Assembly (NCBI GenBank): GCA_017934745.1
Contig: JAGBIY010000003.1
Span: forward strand, 91,336-155,335
Length of the DNA stretch: 64,000 nucleotides
Reading direction: 5' to 3'
From: Treponema sp.
Lineage (GTDB): Bacteria > Spirochaetota > Spirochaetia > Treponematales > Treponemataceae
The translations under genes and the position numbers were made by a program. How positions within the stretch are numbered: position 1 is the stretch's first letter; each line of letters starts with the position of its first letter. Shown piece by piece: positions 756 through 52,185 of this stretch. Below the pieces are notes generated by a model. The model saw only the letters and a list, made by a program, of their open reading frames with translations. It did no database searches and had not been told where the DNA came from.

Positions 756-958
756 AACCGAAAGTCGAGTTTTTACAGTGCAATGACTGAAACAAGCGGA
801 AGCGGGGTTCCTGATTGAAAAACACTAAACATCGCAAGCGATGTTAACGCCACCGCGAAGCGGTACTGCCGTTTTGGGCAAGACTGCGCAAGCAGGCTGC
901 GGTTCCCGCTGGGAGCTTGTTTCAGCAACTACAGTATGCATAAACTCGGCTTTCGGCA
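756..958 (+). repeat. Dispersed structured repeat, copy 1 (degenerate ends)
   Basis: This is the longest copy of a four-member family (the others are at 10935, 19941 and 52000). It carries the conserved blocks CAAGCGGAAGCGGGGTTCC near the left, ACCGCGAAGCGGTACTGCCG in the middle and GGTTCCCGCTGGGAGCTTG near the right, plus the tail TATGCATAAACTCGG. An extra small hairpin, ACATCGC-AA-GCGATGT, precedes the central hairpin, as in copy 4. The outer ends still pair (CCGAAAGTCGAGTTT with AAACTCGGCTTTCGG), but the long variable arm is poorly paired here and no TA flanks are present, so this looks like an older copy. Confidence 0.8.
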
Positions 959-10934: not shown

Positions 10935-11100
10935 GGTTGAATGTCGAGTTAATGCGGATTGTAAAAAATGGAAACAAGCTCCCGTCGGGAACCCGGTCAC
11001 AAAAACGGCAGTACCGCTTCGCGGTGGCTGAGTGTTTTTGTGACCGGAACCCCGACTCCGCTTGTTTCCATTTTTAGTTCGTAAAACTCGATATTCAGCC
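10935..11100 (-). repeat. Dispersed structured repeat, copy 2 (inverted orientation, TA flanks)
   Basis: The 166-bp element reads on the minus strand relative to the other copies. Its ends are inverted repeats (GGTTGAATGTCGAGTT and AACTCGATATTCAGCC), flanked by TA on both sides (10933-10934 and 11101-11102). Inside are complementary arms CCGGTCACAAAAAC and GTTTTTGTGACCGG around the conserved central hairpin, and outer arms AAAAATGGAAACAAGC and GCTTGTTTCCATTTTT. Both sets of arms differ in sequence from the other copies yet pair perfectly. The last base of the element and the flanking TA form the stop codon of the gene at 11100. Confidence 0.85.
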
Positions 11101-19806: not shown

Positions 19807-19940
19807 GCCCCCATTCTACCACCATCGCCAACACGCTTCCACCAAAACGAAAAACTGCGAATTGAAAACGGAAAATTGAAAATTGTTAGTTGAATAACAT
19901 GTAAAATCTTTTCTATATCTCTGATAAATTATCACTAGAC

Positions 19941-20105
19941 GGGCGAAAGTCGAGTTTTCACAATGCTTGTCCGAAACAAGCGGAAGCGGGGTTCCGACCA
20001 AAAGAACACTCAGCCACCGCAAAGCGGTACTGCCGTTCTTTTGGTCGGGTTCCCGCTGGGAGCTTGTTCCGGCAACTACGATATGCATAAACTCGGCATT
20101 CGACC
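19941..20105 (+). repeat. Dispersed structured repeat, copy 3 (flanked by TAGAC)
   Basis: The 165-bp element has the conserved blocks and one central hairpin. Its variable arms CCGACCAAAAGAAC and GTTCTTTTGGTCGG pair perfectly and differ from those of copies 2 and 4. It is flanked by the direct repeat TAGAC (19936-19940 and 20106-20110). It ends 34 bases before the ATG of the pectin esterase gene, so it is likely to lie in, or replace, that gene's promoter region. Confidence 0.85.
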
Positions 20106-20139
20106 TAGACGTGTTATAGATGCACACGCAGAGGTTTTT

Positions 20140-51999: not shown

Positions 52000-52185
52000 G
52001 GTCGAATGTCGAGTTTTCACAGTGCAATGGCAGAAACGAGCGGAAGCGGGGTTCCATAGCCGAATGCACTAAACATCGCACGCGATGTTAACGCCACCGC
52101 GAAGCGGTACTGCCGCATTCGGCTGTGGGTTCCCGCTGGGAGCGCGTTTCGGCAACTACGGTATGCATAAACTCGACATTCGCCC
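52000..52185 (+). repeat. Dispersed structured repeat, copy 4 (two-hairpin type, TA flanks)
   Basis: The 186-bp element has ends GGTCGAATGTCGAGTTT and AACTCGACATTCGCCC, flanked by TA at 51998-51999 and 52186-52187. Variable arms CCATAGCCGAATGC and GCATTCGGCTGTGG pair with one T-G wobble. As in copy 1, an extra hairpin ACATCGC-AC-GCGATGT stands before the ACCGC-GAA-GCGGT hairpin. This is the best preserved long copy. It lies between the FliL-like gene and the membrane protein of the sigma factor unit. Confidence 0.85.

Follow-up and report, generated by a model that had tools for sequence, protein, structure and literature searches.

The window analysed here is a stretch of 64,000 nucleotides from a Treponema sp. 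genome, positions 91336-155335 of contig C15 (assembly of 3.58 Mb in 73 contigs). It contains four copies of a dispersed element of about 165–203 bp. The copies and the parts of copy 3 are as follows:

756..958, + strand: copy 1, with a 20-nt extra hairpin and the right inner arm replaced and unpaired; core 790-925; no exact 5-bp duplication
10935..11100, - strand: copy 2, with perfect inner-arm pairing and GTC/GAC beside the internal loop; core 10969-11067; no exact 5-bp duplication
19941..20105, + strand: copy 3, a complete element whose target site is duplicated; core 19974-20072
52000..52185, + strand: copy 4, with a 20-nt extra apical hairpin and an inner arm that includes one T-G; core 52034-52152; no exact 5-bp duplication
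19936..19940: copy 3, left 5-bp target duplication TAGAC
19941..19957, + strand: copy 3, left terminal inverted repeat GGGCGAAAGTCGAGTTT
19974..19981, + strand: copy 3, left strand of the mid helix, pairing with 20062-20069
19982..19984, + strand: copy 3, left side of the internal loop, GGA
19985..20007, + strand: copy 3, left inner arm, variable portion after GGGGTTCC
20008..20034, + strand: copy 3, apical hairpin, whose GC[G/A]NAGC loop has the form CCGCAAAGCGG
20035..20057, + strand: copy 3, right inner arm
20058..20061, + strand: copy 3, right side of the internal loop, GGGA
20062..20069, + strand: copy 3, right strand of the mid helix
20089..20105, - strand: copy 3, right terminal inverted repeat
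20106..20110: copy 3, right 5-bp target duplication TAGAC

Each window copy, taken with short flanks, formed one long hairpin that folded better than 200 of 200 shuffles, with z values of -5.1, -10.6, -8.0, and -8.7 for copies 1 to 4. The ORFs on both flanks of copy 2 converge on the element. The initial annotation had described four copies with common blocks and covarying arms. The coordinates and blocks were reproduced, and the arms were as described in copies 2, 3, and 4, but the pairing did not hold in copy 1. The left arms GGTCACAAAAAC and GACCAAAAGAAC paired perfectly with their right arms, and the left arm ATAGCCGAATGC paired except for one T-G (11 positions compared in each case). The change from AGC/GCT to GTC/GAC in copy 2 was also present in the aligned copies. 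The right arm of copy 1, where pairing had been said to be kept, is GTTTTGGGCAAGACTGCGCAAGCAGGCTGCGG instead and is unpaired; this substitute is a segment that forms a small hairpin of its own. The GTTTTGGGCAAGACTGCGCAAGCAGGCTGCGG form of the right arm was found in 12 full-length copies of the genome, copy 1 among them.

The family in the source genome is large. The block GCGGWAGYGGGGTTCC occurred 130 times with up to 2 mismatches, compared with 12 times for the reversed control. A covariance model built from 17 copies (R1) gave 123 matches, in agreement with the tens of copies predicted from the window; 121 were extracted, and two reverse-strand matches, both on perfect palindromes, were left out. 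A loose regular expression gave 329 matches, mostly noise, and copy coordinates were therefore taken from the model. Among the 121 cores, 83 had a length of 99 nt, 20 contained an additional hairpin of 20 nt, the right arm was replaced in 12, and 6 fell outside these classes, four of which were cut by a contig end. In total, 56 of the 121 copies lay within 150 bp of a contig end (examples on C5, C16, C24, C66, and C67) and 65 were internal, so one genomic copy near a contig end may count twice. The element repeat is a likely cause of breaks in the assembly.

Both ends of the element carry the terminal inverted repeat GG[G/T]CGAA[A/T]GTCGAGTTT, as expected of a miniature inverted-repeat transposable element (MITE); the sequence GGNCGAANGTCGAGTTT is found in these inverted ends. 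Target duplication was counted in 62 copies of the source genome and 40 copies of relatives, all with both ends recognisable. An exact 5-bp duplication was present in 27 of the 62, compared with a mean of 2.15 and a maximum of 9 after the right flanks were shuffled. Other duplication lengths from 2 to 10 bp were at the chance level or limited to a single copy in the same set. The 5-bp signal was weak in relatives (3 of 40 copies; null 0.47). Exact 5-bp duplications also flanked copies with the replaced right arm, at C35:1241, at C18:28085, and in C28/C49, which count as one pair with identical flanks. The replaced-arm form is thus still mobile, and inner-arm pairing is not strictly required for moving. 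The inner helix may therefore serve a purpose other than transposition. No autonomous element with the same ends was found among the fetched loci, and no transposase was recognised in 45 end pairs enclosing a long ORF; ORFs were judged by eye from their first residues in both cases.

The fold consists, from the outside in, of outer arms; a mid helix; an internal loop of GGA facing GGGA; an inner helix of about 22 bp; an internal loop of A facing GCC; and an apical hairpin whose loop is GCGNAGC. The inner helix holds a conserved wobble block of G-T, T-T, and T-G, in which the pairs flanking T-T were G-T in 80 and T-G in 80 of 84 distinct cores. Conservation was highest in the unpaired parts, namely the GGA/GGGA (or GTA/GAGA) internal loop and the GCGNAGC apical loop. 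GGA faced GGGA in 112 of 121 source-genome copies and in 55 of 119 relative copies, and GTA faced GAGA in a further 43 of the 119; the relative copies came from 34 genomes and were mainly the best-scoring ones. The apical loop was GCGNAGC in 100 of 121 source-genome and 89 of 119 relative copies, with A, G, T, or C at N, and GCANAGC in a further 17 and 9 copies, respectively. Loops of the type GNA or GNNA closed by G-C are described by the discoverers of DNA mini-hairpins as extraordinarily stable, with melting of GCGAAGC given as about 78 °C (PMC4686876). RNAfold with RNA parameters often drew an apical pairing other than the GCGNAGC mini-hairpin in the relatives.

Covariation was investigated in an almost gapless alignment of 84 distinct 99-nt cores, 36 from the source genome and 48 from other genomes. 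The structure tested was predicted from the source-genome copies and had 36 pairs. Pairing was found in 97.2% of pair cells, compared with 79.9% after shuffling, and double changes occurred at 32 of the 36 pairs. The covariation score was 0.445, compared with 0.114 for shuffled data (0/500) and 0.05–0.07 for slid structures. Since the copies are related, a tree-aware null was used. In this R-scape-like test of our own, the substitutions of each column were redistributed on the tree 150 times for 80 of the 84 rows. Nine of 4560 column pairs were significant at E < 0.05; all 9 were inside the 36-pair structure and 0 outside. Covariation beyond kinship, for which R-scape had been proposed as the test, was thus found.

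The inner arms were counted in 103 of 121 source-genome copies (core lengths 99 and 119) and in 95 of 119 relative copies (94–101 nt). The 29 distinct arm pairs of the source genome had 297 Watson-Crick, 13 G-T, 2 A-C, and 7 other cells. Non-complementary arms in further copies had been named as the outcome that would speak against a real structure, and these 29 arm pairs were complementary. Plain mismatches were many in relatives, with 60 of 780 cells of the transversion type in 72 distinct arm pairs. The pairing of the arms is not by chance.

G-T and A-C intermediates between Watson-Crick states are one event viewed on two strands, and their ratio indicates which strand is folded. The ratio of G-T to A-C in distinct inner-arm pairs, counted without the fixed conserved mismatches, was 13:2 in the source genome and 19:4 in relatives. 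Counted as events over 27 pairs in 104 distinct sequences (lengths 99 and 119 only), it was 32:13 (p 0.003). The excess of G-T on one strand shows that the single strand reading GGA is the folded, constrained form. This preference fits RNA and single-stranded DNA (ssDNA) alike. Three observations support the selection on a folded RNA or DNA hairpin proposed in the initial annotation: the covariation is cross-genus, the strands are asymmetric, and the mismatches are conserved. The long-term pattern of covariation, strand preference, and kept mismatches needs selection on a one-strand fold.

Model R1 matched 9 of 23 other genomes of the same genus and 0 of 15 genomes from other genera. A second model (R2), built from 29 sequences, matched at least 85 of 147 same-genus genomes, the source genome included. 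Across the phylum, R2 matched 12 of 247 genomes, 11 of the same genus (source included) and 1 of another genus of the family. In the R2 scan of the 147 same-genus genomes, up to 23 candidates were scored per genome under stricter filters, and its counts are lower bounds. ORF neighbours could be named on both sides for 64 of the 121 copies; 21 settings were convergent, 34 tandem, and 9 divergent, and the tandem settings comprised 14 sense and 20 antisense copies. Of the 121 copies, 42 had a positive and 41 a negative local GC skew when read along the strand of the element, and neighbouring copies on a contig had like orientation in 39 and unlike orientation in 33 cases (counted by hand). These near-even counts show no orientation bias. 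In IMG/VR, 3 stretches contained the terminal-repeat word and 13 a core word; copy 3 had no match among plasmid and phage sequences.

The history of single copies was investigated by matching source-genome flanks to loci of relatives, with classification by eye and draft assemblies on both sides. The orthologous place was occupied on both sides in 12 comparisons with G083, G105, or G111 (flank identity 84.7–97.8%; loci L332 and L362 were taken as G083). C1:39935/L385, C12:46719/L281, and C15:9976/L400 were left out, the other side being empty or unrelated. The relatives' loci were fetched for holding the element, and the comparison is uninformative on the frequency of empty sites. The arms were kept in 3 of the 12: C60:96753; C60:147041; and C15:111309, which is window copy 3 and has the same site and the same arms in G083 (L388). 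Junctions and orientation were the same and the arms were other in four: C15:37201, C30:9904 (against G111), C30:5676, and C59:16811. Both arms and one apical pair of C15:37201 differed from G105, and little else, with flanks at 96–97%. C30:5676 and C59:16811 were compared with G083; C59:16811 is a replaced-arm form, and only its left arm and apical loop differed. C18:73836 had the same junctions as its counterpart in G083, with the element inverted and of another arm class. The arms differed in the last four as well (three inverted), at C20:16807, C18:79620, C60:37500, and C30:9904 (against G083); the junctions differed too, so separate insertion is possible there.

Several of the new arms at swapped sites were classes present in other copies of the source genome. 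Whole inner hairpins can be exchanged as blocks at fixed sites, once in inverted form, most simply by recombination between copies, with the caveat that the assemblies are drafts. Since arms can be exchanged as blocks, a double change that separates two copies here is no independent event and is not by itself evidence of point-by-point compensation. This corrects the initial annotation, in which such double changes were taken to argue for selection. The short-term pattern is block exchange that carries the paired arms along.

The swaps and inversions could instead be short-read assembly artefacts or separate insertions, with slow compensatory evolution as the only real process. This is rather unlikely. 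The assembler does break at the repeat, 56 of 121 copies lying no more than 150 bp from the end of a contig, and repeats are open to mis-joining; the junctions differed too in 4 of the 9 changed comparisons. However, 54 of the 56 contig-end copies fall in five common arm classes, the flanks match on both sides, 5 changed sites keep their junctions, and 3 sites keep their arms.

With moderate confidence, the element is read as MITE-like and non-autonomous, a mobile sequence built around a single-strand fold. Its inverted-repeat ends, the 5-bp duplication in the source genome, and helices that vary yet stay paired are observed, and so, in draft assemblies, is the replacement of inner hairpins as blocks. 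New hairpin versions would arise by stepwise compensation via G-T intermediates while the fold is under selection. Non-allelic gene conversion would then carry them from copy to copy, with the flanking conserved blocks as homology. Least certain is the last part, in which the selected form would be ssDNA, made accessible at replication or in transposition, for example, and a putative host or transposition protein might bind it and read the internal loops and the apical loop. Three weak grounds favour ssDNA over RNA: the copies stand either way round relative to genes, the apical loop is of the GNA class, and the element is mobile. Points that speak against the overall reading are the mobility of the replaced-arm form, the failure to recognise an autonomous element or transposase, the other apical pairings drawn by RNAfold in relatives, and the plain mismatches and weak target duplication seen there.

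It is possible, though doubtful, that the fold is selected as RNA, the copies being transcribed and the hairpin acting as a stabiliser, a terminator, or a site for an RNA-binding protein. Strong covariation with intermediates of the G-U type on one strand is consistent with this, as are the larger number of convergent (21) than divergent (9) settings among the 64 copies and a terminator-like run of at least 4 T behind the mid helix in 93 of 119 relative copies. However, the T run is nearly missing in the source genome (3 of 87 copies), no Rfam match was obtained, and the copies have no fixed gene orientation, the tandem ones being both sense and antisense. The GNA apical loop is moreover a DNA class and is not known as a usual RNA loop class. 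A reading without any selection on the fold, in which one arm is copied onto the other by template switching (quasi-palindrome correction) and pairing of the ends reflects a single transposase that reads both, appears improbable. Two of the 121 copies look corrected, and both also score on the reverse strand: C56:30232 carries GGAACCCCGC on its right side, exactly complementary to the block on the left, and in C58:28729 the apical part is a perfect palindrome. The mechanism itself is documented in E. coli (PMC7202029). However, such correction would remove the conserved mismatches, yet 80 of 84 distinct cores keep them, and strand symmetry would be expected, yet G-T exceeds A-C.

Integron attC sites are single strands read by structure, with free arms. 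The elements could accordingly be attC sites or their relics, folded single strands read by the integron integrase, and an integron integrase was found above the curated cut-off in 7 of 18 genomes tested, source included, where it lies at a contig end (G000:C45:279-1214; L410, L422). This origin is nevertheless highly improbable. In G135, attC-like repeats (CCTAACATCCGCTTAACCTG...CAGGTTGAAGCGGGTGTTAG) lie near the integrase (L416 1438-6951) and differ from the element, with boxes compared by eye. The element model had no match at E ≤ 1 in 7 fetched integrase regions, and the copies are single, in both orientations, outside arrays, and with a 5-bp target duplication.

The MITE-like reading with a folded strand has a wider, more tentative form: the element may represent a mobile class defined by its folded single DNA strand, with internal loops and a GNA apical loop read by a putative enzyme or host factor of these Treponema, arms of free sequence, and whole hairpin cassettes exchanged and at times flipped between fixed insertion sites. 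Covariation of this strength commonly counts as proof that an RNA is functional; here it lies in a dispersed mobile element with free gene orientation and a DNA mini-hairpin at its apex. This may be a case in which single-stranded DNA of the chromosome is recognised by structure alone, outside integrons and IS200/IS605 elements. The orthologous swaps also suggest that gene conversion can replace the two arms of a high-copy hairpin simultaneously, and covariation analyses of repeat families must allow for such conversion of both arms.

The placement of the element outside named families, as initially suggested, was upheld for Rfam 15, which had no match above the gathering threshold in the window and, in 6 loci, no hit on the element at E values up to 5. 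A search by title and abstract found no published account of the element. The nearest known kinds are MITEs and REPINs. Bacterial MITEs include the Correia, ERIC, and RUP elements. The element resembles MITEs in being short, non-coding, intergenic, palindromic, and of high copy number, with terminal inverted repeats and target duplication. It differs from them in a middle that keeps a fold with defined unpaired motifs genus-wide while the helices diverge, and no parent IS was found. REPINs, which are not known to have terminal inverted repeats or target duplication, are likewise dispersed intergenic hairpins in many copies, whereas the element has both features, with a 5-bp duplication, and other conserved motifs. 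REPINs are described as REP doublets that form hairpins and are moved by RAYT transposases; compensatory changes are reported as common in their spacer, of which the length and the hairpin capacity appear to matter (PMC3116915). Compensated hairpins of this kind are present in the element. Repeats of 34, 60, and 122 nt on Borrelia plasmids are also from a spirochaete and intergenic, and their hairpins are described as having compensated stems (PMC2674063). Compared by description only, they differ from the element in their plasmid location, and the part of the account considered describes no target duplication (PMC2674063).

Candidate mobilising enzymes were searched by profile. The AT-rich 5-bp duplication had suggested a miniature element of the Tn3 family (TIME); this was rejected, as Tn3 transposase PF01526 was found in 0 of 25 genomes, source included. 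A REPIN/RAYT system was rejected, as Y1/RAYT PF01797 gave 0 hits in the source genome. PF01797 was present in 10 of 30 genomes, namely in 5 of the 17 that carry copies, where one match was below the cut-off, and in 5 of the 13 that lack them, and was missing from 12 of the first 15 copy-bearing genomes tested. A retrotransposed, SINE-like RNA element was also rejected, as reverse transcriptase PF00078 (RVT_1) gave 0 hits in the source genome; it was found in 3 of 18 genomes, 2 over the cut-off.

Some further loci were noted in relatives. The same terminal repeats enclosed other inner contents by eye, also foldbacks, at L269 and L272 (T. zioleckii-like G043) and at L266 (G161). Doublet-like pairs of two inverted cores about 90–130 bp apart were seen at L246 and L247 (G382) and at L066 (G007). 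Near copies at L259 (G354) and L278 (G158) lay ORFs that resemble Rpn-type PD-(D/E)XK nucleases. In G138 (L097, L189, and L190), several copies lay closely behind look-alike stretches, perhaps a gene family together with the element.
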